Below are positions 2,046 through 22,100 of a DNA stretch of 39,765 bases, piece after piece (the stretch's first letter is position 1; every line of letters starts with the position of its first letter). The stretch lies in the NCBI GenBank assembly GCA_902620455.1, contig CACNIG010000010.1, positions 1-39,765 of the forward strand, read 5' to 3'. Made by a program: the position numbers and the translations under genes. Origin of the DNA: an uncultured Bacteroidota bacterium (lineage in GTDB: Bacteria; Bacteroidota; Bacteroidia; Flavobacteriales; Flavobacteriaceae). The notes under the pieces were generated by a model, which worked only from the letters and a program-made list of their open reading frames with translations, made no database searches and was not told the DNA's origin.

Positions 2046-3383
2046 TTAGTCTAGATTATAATATTGAAACGTTTTACTTTCCTCTATAAATGGATCTCCT
2101 TTAGCAAGAATTGGTGCTTTTGAAATTTCCTTAAATACAACATAGGTAAATATCCCCAAGAAGAATAAAAACCCTCCAATCTCAGCAGGTCCAAAGGACC
2201 ACATATCTCCTACAGCAGATGGCATTATCATATTGTATACATCAAGGTAATGACCAATTATAATCACAATTCCTGTTAAAATTACAATAAAGTTAGTCTT
2301 CTTAAAATCACTATTCATAAGAACAATTAATGGGAATATAAGATTTAATACTACCATACCAAAAAATAAAAAATTATAGTCTTCAATTCTAGTAATGAAG
2401 TAAGTTACTTCCTCTGGTATATTTGAATACCAAATAAGCATAAACTGAGAAAACCATAAATAAGCCCAGAAAACACTTACACCAAACATGAACTTAGCCA
2501 AGTCATGAATGTGACTATCGTTAACAAAACTTAGATAATTTTGAGATTTAAGATATATTGTAATTATGGCTAAAGTTGTTATACCTGATACAAACATACC
2601 TGCAAAAACATACCACCCAAATAAAGTACTAAACCAATGAGGATCTATTGACATTATCCAATCCCATGACATCATAGATTCTGAAATTAAAAAGAATACT
2701 AAAAAACCAGCAGAAAATTTAAATAATTTTTTATGAATGCTCATATCATTATTAGTATCCTGCTCAAGAGATAGTTTTCGAGTAATATTTCTATACAGAA
2801 CCCAACCGGATATATATATTATTGCCCTTGCAAAAAAGAAAGGTATGTTTAAATATCCAACTTTATTTCTAATTATTTCATCATGTGCAACCACATCAGG
2901 ATCCATCCATAAGAAAAGATGATTGAACTTTAATGCAGAAAATACAAGTATAATGATTACAAATATTGAACCTGGAAGAAGATATCCTGTAACCCCTTCC
3001 ATTAATCTATATAATACTATTGACCAGCCTGCTTGAGAAGCTCTTTGAATTGCATAAAATGCTAGGACACCAAGAGAAATCATCATGAAAAATAAAGCTG
3101 GCACATAGATTGCGGCCCATGGCTTATTTTGTAATTGATGAAAAACATGCTTATCATGATCGTACTCATGACCCGAAGCTCCATGACTATCCTCCCCATA
3201 TCCATCTGCATGACTATCACTATGATCCCCGTATCCATCATGGCTCATTTTAGCAACAATTTCCTTTGATTCTTCTACATTAGAAGGTGCATTATAGAAT
3301 CCAAACGCAATACCAATAGCTCCAATAATTGTCAAAATTATGGAGAATCTTTTGATTTGTTTTGAAAACTTATAATCTGTCAT
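2046..3383 (-). CDS. actF: Alternative complex III membrane subunit ActF
   Basis: 445 residues, about ten hydrophobic helices. In alternative complex III (ACIII), ActF is one of two related NrfD/PsrC-like integral membrane subunits; ActC is the other. Seen: an N-terminal helix (about 13-30), then a His/Asp/Gly-rich loop (residues 48-82, eight His), then the helical bundle ending in HYLDVYNMIMPSAVG and a last helix. Its length and place in the order actE-actF-ctaC fit the family. It lies 3 nt after actE and 1 nt before ctaC. The His-rich loop may bind metal, but that is only inference. Confidence 0.92.
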   Translation of the reverse strand: MTDYKFSKQIKRFSIILTIIGAIGIAFGFYNAPSNVEESKEIVAKMSHDGYGDHSDSHADGYGEDSHGASGHEYDHDKHVFHQLQNKPWAAIYVPALFFMMISLGVLAFYAIQRASQAGWSIVLYRLMEGVTGYLLPGSIFVIIILVFSALKFNHLFLWMDPDVVAHDEIIRNKVGYLNIPFFFARAIIYISGWVLYRNITRKLSLEQDTNNDMSIHKKLFKFSAGFLVFFLISESMMSWDWIMSIDPHWFSTLFGWYVFAGMFVSGITTLAIITIYLKSQNYLSFVNDSHIHDLAKFMFGVSVFWAYLWFSQFMLIWYSNIPEEVTYFITRIEDYNFLFFGMVVLNLIFPLIVLMNSDFKKTNFIVILTGIVIIIGHYLDVYNMIMPSAVGDMWSFGPAEIGGFLFFLGIFTYVVFKEISKAPILAKGDPFIEESKTFQYYNLD

Positions 3384-8902: not shown

Positions 8903-10147
8903 CTAGTAATGACATTTAGCACATTCAATACCACCAAGCTGAGCAACAGTAAGTTGCTCAACTCCATATTTTTTTGATAGTTCCTCATGAACTTTTTGAT
9001 AATACTCATTATCCTTGTCAACATTGCTCTCTCTGTGACAATCTATACACCAGCCCATAGTTAATGGAGAATACTGGTACATTATTTCCATTTCCTCAAC
9101 AGGACCATGACATGTTTGACATTCAATTTGTGCAACTTGAGCATGTTGAGCGTGATTAAAATATACAAAGTCAGGAAGGTTATGAATTCTTATCCATTTT
9201 ACTGGCTGAGTATTTCCAGTGTAAACTTGATTTTCTTCATCCCATCCAACAGCGTTATATAATTTTTTAATCTCATTTGTATAAAAGTCTTTTGTGTAAC
9301 CATTTTCTAAATCTTCTTCACCATTATATTCACCAATATACTCGTGACAATTCATACAAACATTAAGTGATGGAATTCCAGAGTGTTTAGAAACTCTTGC
9401 AGAAGAATGACAATATTTGCATTCAATTTGATTTGCCCCAGCATGAATTTTATGAGAATAATGAATTGGCTGTATAGGGGCGTAACCCTGGTCAATTCCA
9501 ATCTGCATTAAATAACCATATGTGAAGTAAGCGCTTGATAATAAAAACCCAATTACCAAAACAAACATTATAAATTGATTTTCTACGACAGCTTTCCACA
9601 GAGGCCTTATATTTCTTTTTGGTTCTGGTTCAATTTTTACTCCACTAGCATTAGCAATTTTAATAAGTGTTCTTTGAACTAGAAACAACATTACTATCAA
9701 GATTGTAAAAATCACAATACTAACTGCTAAGATTATATTAACTGATATGTCAGAGCCTTGACTAACAGTCTCAGCAGTAGCTACAGCGGGTGCAGGTGCT
9801 GGTGGTGTGTAATTGGTATATGCTAATATATTGTCGATCTGCTCATTTGAAAATTGAGGATAATTTGTCATAACCGCACGATTGTATTCCTCCCAGATTG
9901 CAACGGCTTGTGGATCACCATCTTTAATCATCTGGGTCCCATTCTTAATCCAGCTGTATAACCACTCTTTATCATACTTTTCAGTTACACCTCTTAATGC
10001 AGGGCCAACTGCTTTTCTGTTTAACTGATGACAAGCAGCACAGTTTGAATTAAATAAAGCTTTACCCGCCTGAATATCTGCCTCTTGAGAAAGCCCCAAA
10101 GAAGGGAAAAGAAGTGTTACTAAAAGAATCCTTTTTAAGTGTAACAT
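8903..10147 (-). CDS. actA: Alternative complex III multihaem cytochrome c ActA with N-terminal monohaem domain
   Basis: 414 residues, first gene of the operon. Signal peptide at 1-20. Six CxxCH haem c sites are visible, starting at residues 36, 243, 264, 343, 367 and 409. The first lies in a separate class I cytochrome domain (LFNSNCAACHQLNRKAVGPA), followed by a Pro/Ala linker, a membrane helix at about 135-157, a second hydrophobic segment at about 190-210, then the five-haem ActA core ending at residue 413. The core is the usual ActA; the N-terminal cytochrome is an added domain that I associate with flavobacterial versions. It receives electrons from ActB and relays them to ActE or the oxidase. 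Confidence 0.95.
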   Translation of the reverse strand: MLHLKRILLVTLLFPSLGLSQEADIQAGKALFNSNCAACHQLNRKAVGPALRGVTEKYDKEWLYSWIKNGTQMIKDGDPQAVAIWEEYNRAVMTNYPQFSNEQIDNILAYTNYTPPAPAPAVATAETVSQGSDISVNIILAVSIVIFTILIVMLFLVQRTLIKIANASGVKIEPEPKRNIRPLWKAVVENQFIMFVLVIGFLLSSAYFTYGYLMQIGIDQGYAPIQPIHYSHKIHAGANQIECKYCHSSARVSKHSGIPSLNVCMNCHEYIGEYNGEEDLENGYTKDFYTNEIKKLYNAVGWDEENQVYTGNTQPVKWIRIHNLPDFVYFNHAQHAQVAQIECQTCHGPVEEMEIMYQYSPLTMGWCIDCHRESNVDKDNEYYQKVHEELSKKYGVEQLTVAQLGGIECAKCHY

Positions 10148-10213
10148 TAGTTGGGGGCTATAAAGATTTTCTCCATGATAACAAAAGTGAATTTAGACAC
10201 TTTTTCAACGTAG

Positions 10214-10221
10214 CAAATTTA
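10214..10221 (-). promoter_or_regulatory. Candidate -7 box of the act-cta operon promoter
   Basis: The minus strand reads TAAATTTG, an exact match to the Bacteroidetes -7 consensus TAnnTTTG, about 67 nt upstream of the actA start. It would give a leader of roughly 60 nt. I found no clear TTG (-33 element) at the usual distance, and such boxes are not rare in AT-rich DNA, so this is tentative. Confidence 0.4.
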
Positions 10222-10316
10222 AGCCATAAACGTCATTTTAAAAACTCTAAAATCAACAAATATTTAATTTATATTTAATTTATAATCATTCTAAATAACA
10301 AGTTAAATCATTTTGT

Positions 10317-10324
10317 TAAATTTG
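10317..10324 (+). promoter_or_regulatory. Candidate -7 box for the SPOR-domain gene
   Basis: TAAATTTG matches TAnnTTTG and ends 12 nt before the preferred ATG at 10337. If used, the transcript would have a leader of only some 8 nt. It also argues against the upstream TTG start at 10313, which would lie ahead of the transcription start. No convincing -33 TTG was found. Confidence 0.4.
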
Positions 10325-10336
10325 AGAAATATATTT

Positions 10337-10717
10337 ATGTTAAAAATTCGATTTCTCCCTTTATTTATTGGTGTTTGCCTTTGTAGTTTTTCAGTTAATG
10401 GTCAAGAAAATTCTATAAGATATAATGATACCCTCACTAAGAAATTTTATAACTTAAAAAAAGAATATAGTAAGAGAGTTTTTGAGTCTACTTTTTACAC
10501 TATCCAGATCTATTATGGGGGTCTAGAGGAGGCAGATTCTATACTTGAAGATTTTAAAGAAAATTATCAAGAAATTAAATCAAATTTAATTTTCGAAACT
10601 CCGAATTATAAAGTTAGAATTGGAGAGTACAAAGACATAAATATTGCATCTCAAAAATTAGAGGAAATACGGAGAATTTATCCAAGCTCTTTTATAATAA
10701 AGCTTTCTAATTTATAG
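10337..10717 (+). CDS. Secreted SPOR-domain protein
   Basis: 126 residues from ATG 10337. A longer frame from TTG 10313 exists, but the signal peptide (LKIRFLPLFIGVCLCSFSVNG) begins right after the ATG, so I chose the shorter form. After cleavage near VNGQEN, residues about 45-126 form a SPOR-like domain: FYTIQIYYGGLEEADSILED, a central FETPNYKVRIGEYKD, then the second helix and strand. SPOR domains bind denuded glycan strands of peptidoglycan and often act near the division site. This gene converges on infB with a 6-nt overlap of the ends, an arrangement I believe is common in Flavobacteriia. The specific role is unknown. Confidence 0.85.
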   Translation: MLKIRFLPLFIGVCLCSFSVNGQENSIRYNDTLTKKFYNLKKEYSKRVFESTFYTIQIYYGGLEEADSILEDFKENYQEIKSNLIFETPNYKVRIGEYKDINIASQKLEEIRRIYPSSFIIKLSNL

Positions 10718-13213
10718 TTTTCTTTTAATTGCAACTTCTTGGTAGCATTGAATAATATCACCCTCAACTAAATCATTATACTCATCAATTTGAATTCCAC
10801 AATCATAGCCTTTTGCCACTTCTTTAACATCATCTTTGAATCTTTTCAGTGATAGTAATTTACCCTCAAAAATAATTTCATCTGATCTCACAACTCTTAC
10901 ATTTGAATTTCGGAATATTTTTCCCGAGGTAACCATACATCCTGCTATAGTTCCAATTCTTGAAATTTTAAATGTCTCCCTAACTTCAGCTTCCCCTGTA
11001 CTTTCTTCTTTCATTTCAAGAGAAAGCATTCCCTCCATTGCATCTTTCAAATCGTTAATAGCATCATATATAATTGAATAAAACCTTATGTCAATTTGTT
11101 CTTTTTCTGAAAGCTTTCTTGCACTATCAGTTGGCTTAACATTAAATCCTACAATTATAGCTTCAGATGCAGAAGCAAGTAAAACATCAGACTCTGTAAT
11201 TGCTCCAACACCTTTAAATATTATATTAACTTGAATTTCCTCAGTTGATAAATTTTCAAACGAATCTGTAAGCGCCTCAACAGATCCGTCAACATCTCCT
11301 TTAATTATTACATTTAATTCCTTGAAGTCACCAATTGCAATTCTTCTACCAATTTCGTCAAGGGTTAATTGTTTTTGAGTCCTGACATTTTGCTCTCTAA
11401 CTAATTGTGTTCTTTTTGAGGCAATTAATTTAGCTTCTTTCTCATCTTCAAGAACCTTAAATGGATCACCAGCTTGAGGAGCTCCATCAAGTCCGAGAAC
11501 AGACACAGGAGTTGATGGTGTGGCAATTTTTATTGTTTTTCCTGATTCATCAAACATTGCCTTTACCTTTCCACTTGTTTTTCCAGCTAATAAGTAATCA
11601 CCTATTTTAAGTGAACCATTCTGAACAAGCATTGTTGATACATAACCTCTCCCCTTGTCTAAATATGCCTCCAATACTGAACCTGATGAATTCTTATCTG
11701 GATTAGCCTTTAAATCCATAATCTCTGCCTCAAGTAAAACTTTTTCAAGAAGTGAGTCAACACCTTTACCATTGATAGCTGAAATATCTTGCGATTGAAT
11801 CTTTCCTCCCCAGTCCTCAACAACAAGATTCATTGATGCTAAAGATTCCTTAACCTTATCTGGGTTAGCTCCTTCCTTATCAATTTTATTAATCGCAAAT
11901 ATAATAGGGACACCACCTGCCTGAGCATGACTAATAGCCTCTTTTGTCTGAGGCATTATACTATCATCTGCAGCAATAACAATAATAACTATATCTGTTA
12001 TTTGAGCTCCTCTTGCTCTCATAGCAGTGAATGCCTCATGACCTGGTGTATCAAGAAAAGTTATTTTTTTTGAATTATTAACTAAGACAGAATAAGCACC
12101 AATGTGTTGGGTAATTCCACCTGATTCACCTTCAGTTACTGATGAGTTTCTTATATAGTCTAAAAGAGATGTTTTTCCATGATCAACATGACCCATGACA
12201 GTAACAATTGGTGGTCTTTCTTGTAATGATTTTGGATCATCTTCTTCTTCAACTTCATCCTTATCTTCCTCTATATCAGTTTTAATAAATTCTAATTGAT
12301 AACCAAACTCATCTGCAACTACAGAAAGAGTTTCAGCGTCTAGTCTTTGATTCATGGTAACCATTATACCCAATGTCATACAAGCAGAAATGATATCGTT
12401 TGTTGTTACATCCATTAAAGTGGCAATTTCACCAACTGTTATGAACTCAGTTATTTTTATAATCTTGCTTTCTTTCTCAAGTAAAGCTTCTTCCTCCTCA
12501 GATTGAATTTTTCTTTGATCTCTTTTGTCTTTTCTATATTTTGCCCCTTTAGATTTTGATGATTTTCCTTGAAGTTTTTCTAAAGTCTCTCTAATCTGTT
12601 TTTGAATTTCATCATCTGTAGGTTCAACTTTTTGGTTAACAGCTTGTTTTTTATTTTTGATAAACTTGTTTGAGGAGTCTTTTGGCTGAGAAACATCTTT
12701 ACTGATTCTTTTCCTTCTTCTCTTTTTTGATTCCTCTACTTTTTCTTCTTTTTTGTTTATTGACTCAAGATCAATCACCTCACCAGTCTTTTTTAAACCT
12801 GAAAGTTTTTTAAAATTAGTTTGAATTTTAGATGAGTCAACATCTTCTTTAGGATTCTCAATATTTAAGTCTTTAGTTTTTTTTGTATCAGCAGAGACTT
12901 TATCTGAAATTAATTCAGTAGCATCAGATCTTATGCCTTCACTCTCCACTGCCTGCTTCTCCTCTGCCTGCTTCTCCTCTGCCTGCTTCTCCTCTAATTC
13001 TCTTCTCTTTTTGGTATTTATTTCTTCTAATTTGTCTTTATCAGATTTATCTGTTTGAAACTCATCAAGCAATAGGTCATATACATCCTGATCAATTTTT
13101 GATGTTGGTCTTGCTTCAATATCAATTTTTTTTGAACTCAAAAACTCAACAGCTCTATCAAGAGATATATTTAACTCTTTAAGTACTTTATTTAACCTAA
13201 TTGGTGATGGCAT
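10712..13213 (-). CDS. infB: Translation initiation factor IF-2
   Basis: 833 residues. IF-2 is the GTPase that brings initiator fMet-tRNA to the 30S subunit. Seen: IF2_N-like start (IRLNKVLKELNISLDRAVEFL), a long charged, low-complexity linker (about 55-250) with a triple EEKQA repeat, a second IF2_N segment (about 255-310), and the G domain with GHVDHGKT at 341-348, DTPGH at 388-392 and NKID at 442-445. Domains II-IV run to the C-terminus, with the fMet-tRNA-binding end GKLLSLKRFKDDVKEVAKG. It follows nusA by 9 nt. The stop overlaps the convergent SPOR gene. Confidence 0.98.
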   Translation of the reverse strand: MPSPIRLNKVLKELNISLDRAVEFLSSKKIDIEARPTSKIDQDVYDLLLDEFQTDKSDKDKLEEINTKKRRELEEKQAEEKQAEEKQAVESEGIRSDATELISDKVSADTKKTKDLNIENPKEDVDSSKIQTNFKKLSGLKKTGEVIDLESINKKEEKVEESKKRRRKRISKDVSQPKDSSNKFIKNKKQAVNQKVEPTDDEIQKQIRETLEKLQGKSSKSKGAKYRKDKRDQRKIQSEEEEALLEKESKIIKITEFITVGEIATLMDVTTNDIISACMTLGIMVTMNQRLDAETLSVVADEFGYQLEFIKTDIEEDKDEVEEEDDPKSLQERPPIVTVMGHVDHGKTSLLDYIRNSSVTEGESGGITQHIGAYSVLVNNSKKITFLDTPGHEAFTAMRARGAQITDIVIIVIAADDSIMPQTKEAISHAQAGGVPIIFAINKIDKEGANPDKVKESLASMNLVVEDWGGKIQSQDISAINGKGVDSLLEKVLLEAEIMDLKANPDKNSSGSVLEAYLDKGRGYVSTMLVQNGSLKIGDYLLAGKTSGKVKAMFDESGKTIKIATPSTPVSVLGLDGAPQAGDPFKVLEDEKEAKLIASKRTQLVREQNVRTQKQLTLDEIGRRIAIGDFKELNVIIKGDVDGSVEALTDSFENLSTEEIQVNIIFKGVGAITESDVLLASASEAIIVGFNVKPTDSARKLSEKEQIDIRFYSIIYDAINDLKDAMEGMLSLEMKEESTGEAEVRETFKISRIGTIAGCMVTSGKIFRNSNVRVVRSDEIIFEGKLLSLKRFKDDVKEVAKGYDCGIQIDEYNDLVEGDIIQCYQEVAIKRKL
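12949..12993. repeat. Three tandem 15-nt repeats inside infB
   Basis: The unit CTGCCTGCTTCTCCT (plus strand) occurs three times in perfect tandem at 12949, 12964 and 12979. On the minus strand it encodes EEKQA three times, about residues 74-88 of the IF-2 linker. The unit is in frame, so copy-number changes would only lengthen or shorten the linker. It looks like a recent slippage expansion and is more GC-rich than the surrounding sequence. Confidence 0.95.
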
Positions 13214-13222
13214 ATTTTAAAT

Positions 13223-14455
13223 TTAATCTTCAAATTCCTCTTTTAAAATTTTTAAAACATCTGAAACTGTTTCTTCTTCAAGATCAGTTCTTTTTACAAG
13301 ATCCTCTTCACTTAATTCTAAAACACTCTTTGCAGTATCAAGTCCAACTTTTCTGAATTCTTCAATAACCCATGCATCAATTTCATCTTTGAATTCTGTA
13401 AGTTCAACATCTTCTTCAGCACCTTCTCTGTATACATCTATTTCATATCCAGTAAGTCTTCCAGCAAGTCGAATGTTGTGACCTCCTTTTCCTATAGCCC
13501 TTGAAACCTCATCTGGATTGAGATAAACCTGAACTGTTTTTTTCTCTTCATCAATGTTTAAAGAGTTTACTTTTGCTGGACTTAATGCTCTTGTAATGTA
13601 TAACTGAGTATTATTTGTATAGTTGATTACATCAATATTTTCATTTCCTAATTCCCTTACTATACCATGAATTCTAGATCCTTTCATTCCCACACATGCA
13701 CCTACAGGATCAATTCTATCATCATATGAATCAACTGCCACTTTTGCTTTTTCACCTGGAATTCTTACTGCTTTTTTGATTGTAATTAGTCCATCAAAAA
13801 CTTCTGGAATTTCTTGTTCAAATAGTTTTTCTAAGAAAAGAGGTGAGGTTCTTGAGAATATTATCCTTGGTTTATTTCCCCTTAACTCAACATTTTCAAT
13901 TACACCTCTTACGTTATCTCCCTTTCTAAAAAAATCTTTGGGGATTTGCCTATCTTTCGGCATTATTAATTCATTCCCATCGTCATCTAATAGAATTACT
14001 TCTCTTGCTCTTACATGATGAACTTCAGCAGTAAAGATTTCTCCAACCCTATCCTTGAACTGATTGAATATATTATTACTGTCGTGCTCAAAAACTTTAG
14101 CAACAAGGTTTTGTCTTAGAGATTGAATTGATCTCCGTCCAAGGTCTATTAACTTAAACTCCTCGGAAACTTCTTCTCCAACTTCAAAGTCTGGTTCAAT
14201 TTTAACTGCTTCCTTTAGCTCAATCTCTGCATTAGGATCTTCAACCTCACCATCTTTGACAACTATTCTATTTCTCCATATTTCAAGGTCTCCTTTGTCT
14301 GGATTAATAATAATATCGAAATTCTCATCAGTTCCAAATTTTCTAGTAAGAGTATTTCTAAATACTTCTTCTAGTATAACCATCAAGGTTACTCTATCAA
14401 TTAACTTTTCATCTTTGAATTCAGAAAAGGACTCTAGTAATGATATATTTTCCAT
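13223..14455 (-). CDS. nusA: Transcription termination/antitermination factor NusA
   Basis: 410 residues. NusA binds RNA polymerase and nascent RNA and promotes pausing and intrinsic termination. Seen: N-terminal domain (about 1-125), S1 domain (about 130-200, VGEIFTAEVHHVRAREVILL), then two KH domains with VRIPGEKAKVAVDS, VGACVGMKGSRI and ISRAIGKGGHNIRLA-like sequence (here PDEVSRAIGKGGHNIRLAGR). A short acidic C-terminus follows, without the repeated acidic domains of E. coli. It forms an operon with infB. rimP, normally directly upstream, is not here; instead the leader contains an intrinsic terminator and, further up, tRNA-Gln. Confidence 0.97.
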   Translation of the reverse strand: MENISLLESFSEFKDEKLIDRVTLMVILEEVFRNTLTRKFGTDENFDIIINPDKGDLEIWRNRIVVKDGEVEDPNAEIELKEAVKIEPDFEVGEEVSEEFKLIDLGRRSIQSLRQNLVAKVFEHDSNNIFNQFKDRVGEIFTAEVHHVRAREVILLDDDGNELIMPKDRQIPKDFFRKGDNVRGVIENVELRGNKPRIIFSRTSPLFLEKLFEQEIPEVFDGLITIKKAVRIPGEKAKVAVDSYDDRIDPVGACVGMKGSRIHGIVRELGNENIDVINYTNNTQLYITRALSPAKVNSLNIDEEKKTVQVYLNPDEVSRAIGKGGHNIRLAGRLTGYEIDVYREGAEEDVELTEFKDEIDAWVIEEFRKVGLDTAKSVLELSEEDLVKRTDLEEETVSDVLKILKEEFED

Positions 14456-14471
14456 TTACTTAACTTTATTT

Positions 14472-14501
14472 AAAAAAAAAGAGGGACATAATGTCGCCTC
14501 T
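14472..14501 (-). terminator. Intrinsic terminator in the tRNA-Gln/nusA leader (possible attenuator)
   Basis: On the minus strand a hairpin forms from AGAGG pairing with CCTCT (14497-14501 with 14480-14484) and GACA pairing with TGTC, with one bulged C (14496) and a 3-nt loop. It is followed directly by nine T residues (14472-14480). This is a textbook rho-independent terminator shape. It lies 55 nt after tRNA-Gln and the T-run ends 16 nt before the nusA ATG, leaving no room for a nusA promoter downstream of it. nusA transcription must therefore pass through it. Confidence 0.85.
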
Positions 14502-14520
14502 GAATTATCAAAATGCTTGG

Positions 14521-14528
14521 CAAATTTA
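14521..14528 (-). promoter_or_regulatory. Candidate -7 box for nusA, upstream of the leader terminator
   Basis: The minus strand reads TAAATTTG (TAnnTTTG consensus). A transcript from about 14516 would carry a leader of roughly 60 nt containing the whole terminator hairpin. No clear -33 TTG was found. The same box sequence occurs ahead of tRNA-Gln, the act operon and the SPOR gene. Confidence 0.4.
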
Positions 14529-14555
14529 TTATAAATTATTGATATAATAAAATTG

Positions 14556-14628
14556 TTGGCCTACTAGGGATCGAACCTAGACTCTTCTGGACCAAAACCA
14601 GACGTGTTGCCAGTTACACCATAGGCCA
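14556..14628 (-). tRNA. tRNA-Gln (anticodon TTG)
   Basis: 73-nt cloverleaf on the minus strand. The acceptor stem TGGCCTA pairs with TAGGCCA (14557-14563) with discriminator A at 14556. The anticodon stem TCTGG/CCAGA encloses the loop TTTTGGT with anticodon TTG, which reads CAA glutamine codons (and CAG by wobble). The T arm contains GGTTCGATCCC. CCA is not encoded. It precedes nusA on the same strand, separated by a terminator. Confidence 0.95.
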
Positions 14629-14636
14629 ATTAGCTG

Positions 14637-14644
14637 CAAATTTA
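14637..14644 (-). promoter_or_regulatory. Candidate -7 box for tRNA-Gln
   Basis: The minus strand reads TAAATTTG, ending 9 nt before the first base of the mature tRNA. Transcription would begin about 4-5 nt upstream of the tRNA, a sensible distance for RNase P processing. The -33 element is not obvious. Confidence 0.5.
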
Positions 14645-14682
14645 AATTTTTTTTTCTTAAAAAAATATATTTGTGAATTTTA

Positions 14683-15930
14683 TTAATTATTACGATCAGG
14701 AATTGATCTTAGTATCAATAAATTCAATACTGCTGAGACTATTAAATAGCATGATAAGAACATAGTCATTGATGAGTTATTTGTAAGAAATAGCTCTGAT
14801 TGAAAATATAGAACAAGCATTCCTAAAAATATCCTTAAGAACTCAAAATTTATTGACCATTTATATCCATCCATTACTGATGAAAAGCTAAATATTGTTG
14901 AGAATATCAATAAGAAATAACCTGTTTTATCTGAAAATGATAAATCAGTAAATGAGCTTAAAAATATAAACAGCACTATATTTAAGGTCAGGAAATGGAA
15001 TCCAACAAAAACTTTGTGTATGAAAGTATATTCAAACTTATATTTTTCTTGATCAAATACATTTTTAATTTTACTTCGAGGGATTTTTTTTACGACATCT
15101 TTTGGTCTCCAACCAGTCGGCATAAACCATATTTTTAGCTTATCTTTAATACTGCTTGTATACCATGCATCCTGAGTCAAGAACCATAAATGTTGGAAGT
15201 TAATTAAAATAGGGTTCCAAGTTCTTACAGGTTTTAATGTTCCATACACGCATGGCACATCATCTAGCTCTTCTTGAAATGTGCCAAATGCTCTGTCCCA
15301 AATACAGAAAATTGCGGCTAAATTCTTGTCGATATATTCTTTATTAATTGCATGATGAACTCTATGCTGAGATGGAGTAACTAAAATATATTCCAGCCAT
15401 CCAAGCTTACCTATGTGTCTAGTGTGATACCAAAACTGACCAAAAAGGTGGAGTGGTCCAAGAACACTAATCATTTTTGGCGGTACTCCTAAAAGAGCTG
15501 CTGGAACCAAAAATAGAATACCAATACCAAGGTTATTTGTTATGCTTTGTCTGAGTGCACAAGCAAGATTAAATTCTTCACTACTGTGATGAATTACATG
15601 CATATTCCAAAAAATATTAATTGAATGCTTCAGTCTATGATGACAATAACTTGCAAAATCTACACAAACAAAAGCAATAAAATAGAGAAGGATACTCTCT
15701 TCAAGCTCTATAACTTTTAATCTTTCATAAAAGAAAGGATAAGAGAATATTATTATACCAAGACCTAATATGTCAACCATTAAATTTGTGAATCCTGAAC
15801 TTAGACTTGAGATAGTATCCATATATGAATGTTTCAGATCATTTTTCCAGATACCATAGGATATTTCAATAAAAATCAAAACAAGAAAAATTGGTATTGT
15901 AATTAATAAGATGTTTGCGTAGGTATCCAT
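14683..15930 (-). CDS. Fatty acid hydroxylase / sterol desaturase family membrane protein
   Basis: 415 residues, with at least six hydrophobic segments. The di-iron His-box pattern of the fatty acid hydroxylase superfamily is present: HHRLKH at 97-102, HVIHH at 111-115 and HRVHH at 189-193, with further His in YHTRHIG (about 168-172). Such proteins use O2 and two irons to hydroxylate or desaturate lipids. The C-terminal third (about 290-415) adds several helices beyond the catalytic core. The substrate cannot be told; carotenoid, fatty acid or ether lipid are possible. It stands alone on the minus strand, divergent from the Asp-box gene. Confidence 0.9.
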   Translation of the reverse strand: MDTYANILLITIPIFLVLIFIEISYGIWKNDLKHSYMDTISSLSSGFTNLMVDILGLGIIIFSYPFFYERLKVIELEESILLYFIAFVCVDFASYCHHRLKHSINIFWNMHVIHHSSEEFNLACALRQSITNNLGIGILFLVPAALLGVPPKMISVLGPLHLFGQFWYHTRHIGKLGWLEYILVTPSQHRVHHAINKEYIDKNLAAIFCIWDRAFGTFQEELDDVPCVYGTLKPVRTWNPILINFQHLWFLTQDAWYTSSIKDKLKIWFMPTGWRPKDVVKKIPRSKIKNVFDQEKYKFEYTFIHKVFVGFHFLTLNIVLFIFLSSFTDLSFSDKTGYFLLIFSTIFSFSSVMDGYKWSINFEFLRIFLGMLVLYFQSELFLTNNSSMTMFLSCYLIVSAVLNLLILRSIPDRNN

Positions 15931-16014
15931 AAATATTAATTAAAGTATAATCGTATTATATATATATGATATTCAAATATTTTATTTTATTTTGGATCTG
16001 TAAATATATCAATT

Positions 16015-19000
16015 ATGAAAATAAAAAAAATATTTAATCTAATAATGATTGTTGGACTTGCTGTTTTATTTTCAAACACAAATGTCTACTCTCAAAAAAA
16101 ATCAAAAAAAAATTCAGTAACATTTGAAAAAGTTCTTCATGAATCAGTTGAGTACAGGGAGATAGGTCCTTTTAGAGGGGGACGTTCTGCAGCAGTAGTT
16201 GGAGTTCCAGGTAATCCAAAACTATTTTATTTTGGTGCAACAGGTGGAGGTGTTTGGAAAACTGAAGATGGTGGTGAAACCTACGAGAATATTTCTGATG
16301 GATACTTTGGAGGAAGCATTGGTTCAATTGCAATTGCTAAAAATGATCCAAATGTAATTTATGTTGGAGGTGGGGAAGTAACAATTAGAGGGAATGTTTC
16401 ATCAGGGTATGGAGTTTTTAAAAGTGTAGATGCTGGAAAGACATGGACCTTCTCAGGTCTTCCGAATTCAAGACATATTCCAAGAATAGTTATTGACCCT
16501 AACAATAATGATATAGTTTATGCAGCTGTACTTGGAAACTTATATAAGCCTACTCAGGATAGAGGTGTTTACAAATCTATTGATGGAGGAACCACTTGGA
16601 AAAAAGTACTTTATGCTAATGATTTATCAGGTGCATTTGAAATCGTTCTTGACCCAAATAACTCAAGAGTGCTTTATGCATCAACTTGGAGAGTACAGAG
16701 AACACCTTCGAGTTTAAGCAGTGGAGGAGATGGATCAGATCTTTGGAAAAGTATAGACAGTGGTGAGAGCTGGACAAAGATTACTGGTAACTCAGGTTTC
16801 CCTACAGGCATAATTGGTGTAATCGGAGTCACTGTGTCACCTGTTAACTCAGAAAGAGTCTGGGCTATAGTTGAAAATCAAGACAAGGGTGGAGTATACA
16901 GATCTGATGATGGTGGTAAAAGTTGGACATACACAAATAGTAGCAGGTCTCTTAGACAAAGAGCTTGGTATTATTCAAAGATATATGCTGATACTCAAGA
17001 TATAGATGGTGTTTATGTTATGAATGTATCTTATCATTTCTCAGATGATGGTGGTAAAACTTTTGAGTCTCGTCGCGCCCCTCATGGAGATCATCATGAT
17101 CTTTGGATAGCTCCTGAGGATAATAACAGACTAATTATTGCTGATGATGGAGGTGCTCAAGTTTCATATGATAAAGGAAAAACTTGGAGTACCTATTATA
17201 ATCAGCCAACTGCACAGTATTATAGAGTAACAACAGATAACTCTTTTCCTTACAGAATTTATGTTGCACAACAAGATAATTCAACTCAGAGAGTAATGCA
17301 CAGAAGCCTCGGATATAGTATAGGTGAGAACGACTGGGAAAGTACTGCAGGTGGAGAATCTGGACACATAGCTATTGATCCAAATAATAATGATATTGTT
17401 TATGGTGGAAGTTATTTAGGTTTTCTAGAAAGAAAAAATCATGAAAAACAGACATCAAGAATAATTAATGTATGGCCAATTACTACTCTTGGAGAAGGAG
17501 CTGAAGCTATGAAGTATAGATTTAATTGGAATTTTCCAATAGCTTTTAGTAAGCACGATTCATCAAAGCTTTATACATATTCGAATCATGTACACCTATC
17601 AACTGACGAGGGACATAGCTGGGAAACAATTAGTCCGGATTTAACTCGAAATGATAAATCTAAACTTGTCTCTTCTGGTGGACCTATAACTCAAGATAAT
17701 ACTGGTGTCGAATACTATGCAACAATTTTTGCGGTTGATGAATCTCCACTTCAAGAAGGACTTATTTGGGTAGGAAGCGATGACGGATTAATTCATTTAA
17801 CAAAAGATGGAGGGGCTACTTGGGAAAATGTAACTCCAAAGAAAATGCCCGATTGGATGATGATAAATAGTATTGACGCTTCATCTTTTGACTCAGGAAC
17901 AGCATACATAGCTGGGACTAGATATAAACTTGGTGACTTTACACCATATCTATATGTAACTGATGATTATGGAAAAAATTGGAAACTCATAACTGATGGA
18001 ATTAAAGATGAACATTTTACTAGAGTTTTAAGATCAGATAAAGTGAATAAAAACATATTATATGCTGGAACCGAAACAGGAATGTATATTTCTTATGACA
18101 GAGGAAACAGTTGGAATGAATTTCAAAAAAATCTTCCAATTGTTCCAATTACAGATCTTACAATTAAAGATAACTCTTTAATTGTAGCAACCCAGGGAAG
18201 AAGTATATGGATGATTGATGACTTGACTGTATTTCATCAGCTAACTCCATCTACAGATCAGATAAAATTATACAAACCAAAGGACTCCTACAGAATGGGG
18301 GGTGCTGGAGGTAGAAAGTCTTTGAAAGCTGGAACAAATCTTCCAAATGGAGCAATTATTCATTATTTCATTCCAAATTATGATAAAGAAAACGATCAAG
18401 TGAGTCTTTCAATTCATTCATCAGATGGGACCCTTATAAAGGAATTTTCAAACAAGACTAAAGAGAATTTATTAAAAGTTAAAAATGGTGGTAATTCGTT
18501 CGTATGGAATATGAAATATCCTGGAGCAAAACGACTAGACAATATGGTTCTATGGGGAGCAGATTTTACAGGAGCTAAAGCAGTACCTGGAAATTACATC
18601 GTAAAATTAAAAGTCAATGACACTGAAATGACTCAAGAATTTACAATCCATAAAGACCCAACATCTGAGGGTTCTATTGATGACATTAAAGCGCAATTTG
18701 AATTTGTTAATGAAATAAACGGAGTGGTTGATAAAGCTCACAAAGCTATTGAGAACATCAGAAGTATGAAGACAAATCTAAAAAAGTTTCAATCAAATTA
18801 TGCTGATAATGAATTTGCAAAAGACTTGATTGAAGAATCAAAGTCTATCGTAGAGTCAATAGATAAAATTGAAAATGAACTTTATCAAACAAAGAATCAA
18901 AGTAATCAAGATCCTCTTAATTATGGAGTTAAGTTAACTAATAATTTAGGGAACTTAAACTCTGCTTTTAGAGGTAGTGATTTTGGACCAACAGTTCAAG

Positions 19001-19137
19001 ATGTTCAAGTTAAAAATGAGTTAATTGAGAAAGTGAATGCTCAATTAACAAAGTATGACAAAATTATTACAGAGGATATTCCTAATTTTAACTCAAGCTT
19101 CAAAAAACTTGAATTAGATTATTTAAATGTTTTATAG
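16015..19137 (+). CDS. Secreted Asp-box (BNR/VPS10-like) beta-propeller protein
   Basis: 1040 residues. Signal peptide at about 1-26 (ends NVYSQ). I count eleven Asp-box-type repeats of the form S/T-x-D-x-G-x-x-W/F, for example VWKTEDGGETYENI, VFKSVDAGKTWTF, VYKSIDGGTTWKK, LWKSIDSGESWTK, VYRSDDGGKSWTY and HLTKDGGATWENV, spread over about residues 75-700, consistent with one or two beta-propellers as in VPS10/sortilin-like proteins. The C-terminal 200 residues are charged and partly helical (from about 850), with no T9SS sorting domain visible. Often annotated 'glycosyl hydrolase', but no catalytic site is evident. The DUF2723 gene follows after about 30 nt, so co-transcription is likely. Confidence 0.9.
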   Translation: MKIKKIFNLIMIVGLAVLFSNTNVYSQKKSKKNSVTFEKVLHESVEYREIGPFRGGRSAAVVGVPGNPKLFYFGATGGGVWKTEDGGETYENISDGYFGGSIGSIAIAKNDPNVIYVGGGEVTIRGNVSSGYGVFKSVDAGKTWTFSGLPNSRHIPRIVIDPNNNDIVYAAVLGNLYKPTQDRGVYKSIDGGTTWKKVLYANDLSGAFEIVLDPNNSRVLYASTWRVQRTPSSLSSGGDGSDLWKSIDSGESWTKITGNSGFPTGIIGVIGVTVSPVNSERVWAIVENQDKGGVYRSDDGGKSWTYTNSSRSLRQRAWYYSKIYADTQDIDGVYVMNVSYHFSDDGGKTFESRRAPHGDHHDLWIAPEDNNRLIIADDGGAQVSYDKGKTWSTYYNQPTAQYYRVTTDNSFPYRIYVAQQDNSTQRVMHRSLGYSIGENDWESTAGGESGHIAIDPNNNDIVYGGSYLGFLERKNHEKQTSRIINVWPITTLGEGAEAMKYRFNWNFPIAFSKHDSSKLYTYSNHVHLSTDEGHSWETISPDLTRNDKSKLVSSGGPITQDNTGVEYYATIFAVDESPLQEGLIWVGSDDGLIHLTKDGGATWENVTPKKMPDWMMINSIDASSFDSGTAYIAGTRYKLGDFTPYLYVTDDYGKNWKLITDGIKDEHFTRVLRSDKVNKNILYAGTETGMYISYDRGNSWNEFQKNLPIVPITDLTIKDNSLIVATQGRSIWMIDDLTVFHQLTPSTDQIKLYKPKDSYRMGGAGGRKSLKAGTNLPNGAIIHYFIPNYDKENDQVSLSIHSSDGTLIKEFSNKTKENLLKVKNGGNSFVWNMKYPGAKRLDNMVLWGADFTGAKAVPGNYIVKLKVNDTEMTQEFTIHKDPTSEGSIDDIKAQFEFVNEINGVVDKAHKAIENIRSMKTNLKKFQSNYADNEFAKDLIEESKSIVESIDKIENELYQTKNQSNQDPLNYGVKLTNNLGNLNSAFRGSDFGPTVQDVQVKNELIEKVNAQLTKYDKIITEDIPNFNSSFKKLELDYLNVL

Positions 19138-19167
19138 TCATTAAATAATTTTTAATAATTGACTGAT

Positions 19168-22100
19168 ATGCCCGAAACGAAGTTTCGAAAAATCAATAAT
19201 TTAATTGGATGGCTCCTTTTTTCAGTAGCCCTGATTACTTACGGGCTAACCGTTGAGCCAACTGCAAGTTATTGGGACGCTGGAGAGTATATTTCTACAT
19301 CAGCAAAGCTACAAGTGGGTCATCCACCTGGTGCACCATTCTTTCAGATGATGGGAGCAGTTTTCTCTATGTTTGCCGCAAATAATGAGTCTATTGCAAT
19401 TGCTGTAAACTTTTTGTCAGTTGTATCTAGTGCGTTTGTAATCCTTTTTCTTTTTTGGTCGACCACATTATTTCTAAAAAAAATATCTAAGAAAAATAAT
19501 TTTAAAAATGACACAAATATTTTACTTAGTTCATCAATTGGTGCTTTAGCATTTACATTCTCTGACAGCTTCTGGTTCAATGCTGTTGAGACTGAAGTAT
19601 ATGCACTAGCCATGCTTTTTTTATCTGCTACATTTTGGTGTGGTCTTAGATGGGAAAAAGATTTTGATAATAAAAGAGGTGATAAGTGGTTATTACTTAT
19701 CTGTTTTTTGATTGGGCTCTCATTTGGAGTTCATTTCATGGCAATACTTACTATTCCTGCAATAGGGATGATTTATTTCTTTAAAAAGTATGAAAAAATA
19801 ACTATTAAAAATTTTGTTTTAGCTAACATAATATCAGTTTCAATACTACTCTTTATTTTCAAACTTTTACTTCCCTCTACCCTATCTCTATTTGGCCAAC
19901 TAGAAGTATTCTTTGTAAACTCAATTGGTCTGCCGTTTAATTCTGGGACAATTATTGCGGCTTTTTTAATAGTCTTCTTTTTCTACAAATCTCTAAGTTA
20001 CACTAGGTTAAAGGGGATGGTTCAGGCTAATACACTAATATTATGTGTCCTGTTTATTTTTATTGGATTCTCATCTTGGCTGATGCTTCCGATTAGATCA
20101 AATGCTAATACTGTAATTAATGAAAATTCTCCTTCTGATGCTAGAACTCTTTTAGCATATTATAGACTTGAGCAATATCCAAAAACATATCTGTTTTATG
20201 GACCAATGTTCTCAGACATATATGCTCCACAGGATGAAAAGGAACCATATGTAGATGGAAAACCAAAATATGAAAGAGACTATAAAACAAATAAATATAA
20301 AATTGTTAATTACTGGAAAGATTCTGAGATAAATTCAAACTCTAATCACAGAGGACTTATACCTAGACTTTGGAGTTCAAGTCATGCAGGAAATTATATG
20401 AATTTTACAAATCCCTTAAAATTTGAAATACTGGATAGATATAAATCTGAAGAGGTTATTGTAGAGAGTGTCAATGAATTTAAAAGTAGAGAACTTTCTG
20501 GAGAACTTTCTGGAGATGATTATAATGAGTTCTTCAGATCTCTTGGTCCATACCTTAATATTAGCAAGCCTTCACTTTTTGATAATCTTAATTTTCTATT
20601 CTCATATCAAATTAATTACATGTACTGGCGATATTTTTTATGGAATTTTGCAGGTAGACAAAATGATGTTCAGGGAGAATACAATATCCTTAACGGAAAC
20701 TGGATAAGTGGAATAAATTTTATAGATCAGCTAAGACTGGGTAATCAATCAGAACTTAGTGAAGACCAGAAAAATAACAAGGCCAGAAATACATATTTTT
20801 TCCTCCCTCTAATACTGGGAATAATTGGTTTGTTGTATTGCTACAAGTATGACATCAAGTCTTTTTGGACATTACTTTTACTGTTTCTTTTTACAGGACT
20901 TGCATTAAAATTTTATTTAAACGAAAGGCCCTTTGAACCAAGAGAAAGAGATTATGCATTAGTTGGATCCTTTTATATTTTTTCTATTTGGATAGGTATG
21001 GGATTCACTGCAATCATGAACTATATCAAAAAATATGAAAACAAAGTATCAAGATCCATTATATATGTATTATGTATTGCTGCTGTTCCTTTTCTTATGG
21101 GATATAATAACTGGGACGATCATGATAGGTCAGACAGGTATACAGCTCAATCAATTTCGAAAGCATATCTACAATCTATAGATGAAGATAAAGATGCAAT
21201 GATTTTTACTATCGGTGACAATGATACTTTTGCGCTATGGTATGCTCAAGAAATTGAGGAGTTTAGAACAGATGTTAGAACTATAAATACTAGCCTTTTA
21301 GCAACAGACTGGTATATTGATCAAATGAAAAGAAGAGCATATGAGAGCAGTCCGATTCCATCACAAATGGAACATGCACAATATGCTTTTGGAGTAAGAG
21401 ATTATATAAGATATGAGAACTTATTAGATTCTATTAGGTGGGATATAAATGATTTTGTTGATTGGGTAGCAAGTGATAATCCAAGAACAAAATATAGAAA
21501 TTTAATTACTCAATCAGGAGGAGATACAAGCGATTATCCAGAAAATGCACTTGAGACAGTATTCTATCCAACTAATAAGATCAGACTCCCCGTAAATAAG
21601 GAAAACGTAATTAAAAGTGGGCTAGTTAAAGAAAAAGATAGTGATCTAATCCTAGATTACATTGACATAGATTTACCTGAGACTATTATTACAAAAAATC
21701 AAATAATGATGTTAGACATCCTCGCTAACAACAATTGGGAAAGACCAATTTATTTTACCGGAGGTAGCTATGAGGAGTCTGAATATATTTGGATGAAAGA
21801 TTATCTTCAACTCGATGGACTTGTCTATAAATTGGTTCCTATAAAAACTTCAATTGAAAATAACCCATATGAAATGGGGAGGATTGACTCAGATTTAATG
21901 TATAATATTGTGAAAAAATGGTCTTGGGGTAATTCTGAAAGTGATGAGATATATCACGATCCTGAAACAAGAAAAAATAGTATTTCTTTTAGAGGTAATC
22001 TATCTAGATTGTCTGAAAAGTTAATTTCAGAGGGAGAATACGAAAAAGCTGAAGAGATATTAGATTTGGCTTTTTCTAAAATGCCAATTGATTATTATGG

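Follow-up and report, generated by a model that had tools for sequence, protein, structure and literature searches.

A terminator-like leader directly ahead of nusA in a marine flavobacterium, apparently inherited from the rimP-nusA-infB operon leader of Bacteroidia

The rimP-leader, termed the most ubiquitous attenuator by Naville and Gautheret (2010, PMC2965389), consists of a short hairpin and a U-stretch that lie in the 5' UTR of rimP-nusA-infB operons, 4–130 nt before the gene, and NusA was proposed there as the best candidate for its effector; the main text of that paper contains neither the word Bacteroidetes nor Flavobacter. For Bacillus subtilis, autoregulation of NusA by NusA-stimulated intrinsic termination in the 5' leader is described (Mondal et al. 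2016, as covered in the review PMC12288461), and in Streptococcus agalactiae the rimP-nusA-infB leader gives rise to RNAs of two lengths, short and long, from a shared start site, with a stop 31 nt downstream and a suggested NusA feedback (PMC4448216). Closer to the organism considered here, a structured 5' element upstream of rimP, without an Rfam hit, has been listed for Flavobacterium psychrophilum and other Flavobacteriaceae in a study that also gives TAnnTTTG as the flavobacterial -7 consensus (PMC9723704). In the accessible parts of that source rimP is present and no mechanism, structure or link to NusA is given, and we liken the element to ours by its description. Among the accessible portions of the literature on NusA or rimP in Bacteroides, Bacteroidetes and Flavobacterium, and of that on premature termination in B. 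thetaiotaomicron, we found no description of a NusA-controlled leader, and the structured-RNA surveys, as far as accessible, do not mention rimP, nusA or infB. The original prediction for this locus knew of no such description for Bacteroidota; a structured 5' element before rimP was already in print (PMC9723704).

The stretch analysed here, termed the window, comprises 39,765 nt from a marine flavobacterium. Its minus strand carries, in this order, a -7 box read from the sequence (TAAATTTG; 14637–14644), a tRNA-Gln(TTG) gene (14555–14628), which is an upstream neighbour outside the element, a second -7 box (TAAATTTG; 14521–14528), assigned as promoter of the nusA leader from the sequence and the aligned rows of relatives, a hairpin (14481–14500), a T9 or U-tract (14472–14480) that abuts the stem, a gap of 16 nt, nusA with its ATG at 14455 (13223–14455; 410 aa; Pfam NusA_N and KH_5) and, starting 9 nt after nusA, infB (10712–13213; IF2, 833 aa; Pfam IF-2, IF2_N and GTP_EFTU), presumed to belong to the same operon. 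The boxes, the tRNA, the hairpin, the T9 and the 16-nt gap were all located where the original prediction had placed them. It had also held that nusA and infB are expressed only by readthrough. Indeed, no promoter fits in the 16 nt, but the word 'only' goes further than the layout itself, as readthrough from the tRNA promoter or internal promoters ahead of infB may also contribute.

The hairpin reads GAGG-C-GACATTATGTC-CCTC, i.e. GAGGcGAC-loop-GTCCCTC, and is defined by sequence, fold, covariation and invariance within the genus, the T9 by sequence, genus invariance and the T fraction in aligned relatives. The stem of 4+4 pairs contains a single bulged C and is capped by a loop of 3 nt (-8.1 kcal/mol for the hairpin on its own), and the 65-nt leader is more stable than its shuffles (z -2.42), 4 of 200 of which fold equally well. 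A strict consensus terminator scan of positions 9000–20000 returned two sites, none at the leader, against a shuffle mean of 4.8; the window hairpin is not listed because the scan demands a contiguous stem. The core GGCGAC-N3..6-GTCCC occurs a single time in the 1.24-Mb assembly and, with a spacer of 3–7, once in the window versus 0/100 shuffles. The entire leader (14467–14528) is matched by our covariance model R1 with 54.8 bits and an E-value of 4.7e-6, the sole match in its genome and one whose score is to be read with the window row being part of the R1 training set. A dispersed repeat or a general terminator family was dismissed as an identity of the hairpin, the core being unique in the genome and R1 never matching a family genome at more than one place (133 genomes matched).

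In its anatomy the window leader resembles the rimP-leader as described in PMC2965389, with a G-rich 5' arm, a C-rich 3' arm and a U-stretch (GAGGcGAC/GTCCCTC plus T9). It differs from the GGGc..gCCC motif given there, with GAGGcGAC..GTCCCTC in the window and GGGGAC..GTCCCC in many Bacteroidia, and it differs in setting, since the window leader precedes nusA with rimP absent from this place, whereas the leaders of its relatives precede rimP (131/133 R1 matches). That it stands directly before nusA is owed to the absence of rimP from its usual place. The leader-terminator plan is shared with the NusA attenuation of B. subtilis, a member of another phylum in which the mechanism is reported as established (PMC12288461) and not, as here, proposed. 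A promoter-proximal position is also common to the S. agalactiae leader, although RNA ends were mapped in that case, the organism belongs to the Firmicutes and rimP is present (PMC4448216). The window leader thus has the rimP-leader's place in operon history and its anatomy, with a different stem sequence and a position before nusA that came about through gene loss.

Relatives were gathered via NusA, and 77 of the best 80 out of at least 567 were usable, three having too little upstream sequence. All 77 of these have a -7 box together with a hairpin of G-rich and C-rich arms and a T-run, 76 as found by a rule that asked for at least three T and one (L076) by eye. The leader precedes an ORF identified as RimP by Pfam in 71 of the 77 (71/71 such ORFs confirmed), lies directly 5' of nusA in L002–L006 and stands ahead of a rimP remnant in L016. 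Together with the window these leaders make up alignment A1, with 78 rows cut at the -7 box, each starting with a TA-N2-TTTG-like box (TTCG in two). The distance from this box to the stem is 19–29 nt in 78/78 rows, which appears to leave too little RNA ahead of the stem to hold an antiterminator or a leader peptide; no antiterminator is visible in the window, in likeness to the rimP-leader (PMC2965389), with the fold search confined to the comparison of the leader with its shuffles. An alignment across relatives and a look for stem covariation had been proposed as a check of the original prediction, and both speak for a conserved leader: apart from the hairpin being retained in all usable relatives, seven of the eight stem pairs are altered on both sides (34 cells), none of 500 shuffles reached the observed value on any of the five measures used, and slid-structure controls score below the true stem. 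At one mid-stem column pair, 34 of the 77 distinct rows are unpaired by a bulge or mismatch, as in the window. The T fraction amounts to 0.91 over the 6 nt that follow the stem and to 0.28 over the 6 nt that precede it, to be read with the row-selection rule itself demanding at least three T. Of the predicted terminator in the nusA leader, a conserved terminator-like leader has thus been borne out by synteny, covariation and the U-tract, while feedback by NusA continues to be a proposal. On the grounds of comparative sequence data, a conserved leader of the nusA operon resembling a premature terminator is strongly supported.

Within the window's genus, R1 found the leader in 22 of 25 genomes, in 22/22 directly 5' of nusA; the other three also lack a NusA match, so that their data probably do not include the region. 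Pairwise differences among the 22 rows, none of which was dropped and all of which fitted the pattern used for cutting them, were 0.011 and 0 for the two hairpin arms and 0.017 for the T-run, as compared with 0.20 for the 5' UTR before the stem, 0.17 for the loop, 0.096 for the stretch from T-run to ATG and 0.38 at third codon positions of nusA. Conservation extends to the -7 box (0.011) and to the preceding 60 nt (0.034), roughly half of which is tRNA. These data bear on the idea that the hairpin near the start codon acts in translation or mRNA stability, being bound by a protein or protecting the mRNA, without any termination. The stem (up to A1 column 64) ends at a median of 11.5 nt (range 9–25) upstream of the start codon, as measured in 76 of 78 rows, which, given the size of the ribosome footprint, places its end inside or beside the latter and would suit such a role. 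However, a U-tract is retained next to the stem, almost unchanged in the genus and T-rich throughout A1, though the distance from stem to ATG varies, and we therefore consider a purely translational or stabilizing element unlikely.

The leader reaches well beyond the closest relatives. R1 matches 133 of 149 Flavobacteriaceae genomes, at one place each, and may thus serve as a tool that finds one leader per matched genome. Of these matches, 131 sit 30–152 nt upstream of a RimP domain match; the remaining two are in the window's genome and in G028, in neither of which rimP was detected. The 16 family genomes without an R1 match comprise seven with rimP, all seven of which have a hairpin and a T-run, eight without a NusA match, and G040, where a weak hairpin lies ahead of a divergent rimP. 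For eight of the nine family genomes lacking both the leader and a detected rimP, the region is probably missing, since the NusA match is absent as well. Losses of the leader in Flavobacteriaceae were thus discarded as apparent only, reducing to a missing region or, in G040, to the weak hairpin before a divergent rimP. As an observation aside, G064, a single contig listed as 100% complete, showed neither a NusA nor a RimP match at E 0.001, possibly due to missing sequence or divergence.

At the level of the class, rimP was found in 99 of 109 genomes, two of them in the window's family, which left 97 upstream regions. The strict terminator scan was passed by 86 of these versus 115 of 1940 shuffles (6%), and by 47/97 of the same regions on the opposite strand. 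The high rate on the opposite strand is perhaps due to an A-rich 5' flank; better guidance than from the opposite-strand control comes from the shuffles and from the strand bias of R1, which, trained on Flavobacteriaceae, matched 79 of the 97 regions on the rimP strand at E up to 0.1, with four matches on the other strand. Two of the 86 scan matches (L188 and L198) read as something other than the leader; L206 has a clear hairpin. GGGAC/GTCCC stems are present in 45 of the 86 scan matches, all outside the family, and GGGGGC..GCCCCC stems in a few; the T fraction after the stem, 0.77, is partly so by construction, because the strict scan asks for T's. When whole class genomes were searched with R1 at E up to 0.1, 62 genomes gave a total of 75 matches, 50 of them 27–94 nt upstream of rimP and 25 elsewhere, two of the latter upstream of nusA (in the window's genome and in G228). 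All matches with E < 0.001 are at rimP or, in the window's genome, at nusA. Covariation in the class is strong (7/8 pairs, 56 cells), as read from an alignment that was fitted to R1 and includes four wrong-strand rows. In sum, the window leader by all appearances descends from the leader of a rimP-nusA-infB operon found across Bacteroidia. The element had been put forward in the particular setting of tRNA-Gln and nusA; it turned out not to be special to the window, being a rimP-operon leader kept after rimP loss.

The Rfam family RF01770 (rimP) takes its name from the leader of the rimP-nusA-infB operon. Its gathering score of 47 bits was reached in none of the 109 class genomes, the window's included, and by eye none of the weaker matches listed falls at a rimP place; nor is there an RF01770 match at the window leader or the L046 leader. 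A known Rfam leader was accordingly rejected as an identity, with nothing at gathering level. Below that level, the strongest leader overlap was with sraA on L046, at 25.3 bits (gathering score 56) and an E of 0.023 for a search of 106 bases, and was taken as chance. Our findings would therefore extend the rimP-leader attenuator to a large class in which no Rfam model reached its threshold.

The gene rimP functions in 30S maturation. RimP was not detected in any of the 25 genomes of the window's genus, only two of which are at least 90% complete, using a search that was positive in 10 of 14 control genomes. In L016 (positions 2863–3001), apparently only the end of rimP remains between leader and nusA, which looks like a deletion; the L016 genome has no RimP match, and those of its relatives L015 and L020 have one each. 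G028 has tRNA-Gln, leader and nusA, again with rimP not detected. On the NusA tree, the window's genus, L016 and G028 represent three independent changes, as forced by the starred branches. In all three the usual rimP place is empty or holds a remnant, and a rimP that moved elsewhere and escaped the model is barely more than conceivable. Six class genomes in groups f17, f24 and f44 likewise have a leader-like hairpin upstream of nusA (least regular in f44) with rimP not detected; here the absence of rimP is less certain than in those three cases, because the six-frame PF02576 search misses some RimP proteins, NCBIfam recognizing rimP in G040 and in G256 (the latter below the curated cut-off). 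In G196 (L224), a reduced genome of 0.5 Mb, nusA is present, with no rimP detected and no leader seen. That the leader was retained upon loss of rimP speaks for an attenuator whose target is nusA, rather than one that works through RimP. This retention could in part be passive, since promoter and leader form one short unit.

The tRNA-Gln(TTG) gene recurs upstream of the operon in Flavobacteriaceae, in 24 of 60 scanned loci (e.g. L060, L074, L080, L202 and the window), at a position that varies from directly before the leader to often about 1 kb and up to about 2 kb away. It lies within about 200 nt of the leader in ten of the 60 loci, and 36 of the 60 have no tRNA in the fetched flank. A role of tRNA-Gln as a component of nusA control, as implied by the layout originally described, was abandoned on account of this count of ten in 60, leaving the tRNA as a mere neighbour. 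One might still argue that the hairpin simply terminates the upstream tRNA-Gln gene, which ends 54 nt upstream of it and needs a transcript end. Yet the second -7 box lies between the two, and the same hairpin stands before rimP in relatives whose tRNA is further off or absent from the fetched flank, making a plain tRNA terminator very improbable.

The explanation we consider probable is that the leader acts as a promoter-proximal transcription attenuator at which NusA raises termination, inherited from the rimP operon leader. RNA polymerase would start just past the -7 box at 14528–14521 and synthesize a leader RNA of about 40 nt, whose hairpin and U-tract are predicted to form an intrinsic terminator. 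Part of the polymerases would stop there and the remainder read through into nusA-infB. As NusA stimulates intrinsic termination, more NusA would enlarge the stopping fraction, so that nusA would limit its own expression; the ancestral rimP-nusA-infB leader would have stayed with nusA once rimP was lost in the genus. In this scheme we infer the start site, termination in vivo and the part of NusA as effector in Bacteroidota. Negative feedback by NusA, likewise conditional, gains strength from the loss of rimP in three lineages with the leader staying on nusA, and from the apparent lack of room for an antiterminator or leader peptide ahead of the stem. The simplest device fitting these features is most likely an intrinsic terminator with an efficiency set by an elongation factor, and in the window's genus the leader is followed first by the gene for NusA.

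An attenuator of this kind might respond to an effector other than NusA, such as RimP, IF2 or ribosome status, or NusG, or might be a constitutive brake. In keeping with such a possibility, the IF2 gene of the window comes directly after nusA, but RimP is an unlikely sensor where rimP was not detected, and NusA is the operon product reported to act in this manner in B. subtilis (PMC12288461). We regard a different effector as unlikely, and the proposed NusA-responsive attenuator in the window as a minimal and testable candidate for a NusA-controlled terminator in Bacteroidota. Repeated gene loss here separates two candidate feedback proteins, RimP and NusA. More tentatively, and without leaning towards it, one may conceive of NusA feedback via a promoter-proximal terminator as an ancient circuit retained in Bacteroidota as in Firmicutes and Proteobacteria, which in Bacteroidia would be minimal, spanning about 40 nt from start to stop without an RNA switch. 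Owing to this short distance, the leader would read the occupancy of polymerase by NusA just after promoter escape. Were this the case, the repeated loss of rimP with the leader kept would amount to a natural experiment pointing to nusA, and not RimP, as the controlled target.

Two minor observations concern the leader sequence itself. Stem strength and T-run length correlate with a raw r of 0.91, which stems mostly from two clades; independent contrasts gave r 0.38 (p 7e-4) and the ranks of the contrasts showed nothing. A trade-off between stem strength and U-tract was therefore dropped as proof of termination, the contrasts being weak and the rank test null. Finally, the first bases past the -7 box (A1 columns 9–25) look conserved by eye, being GCATTTTGA-like in the window's group and, again by eye, CGTTG-AAAG-like in many cultured genera.
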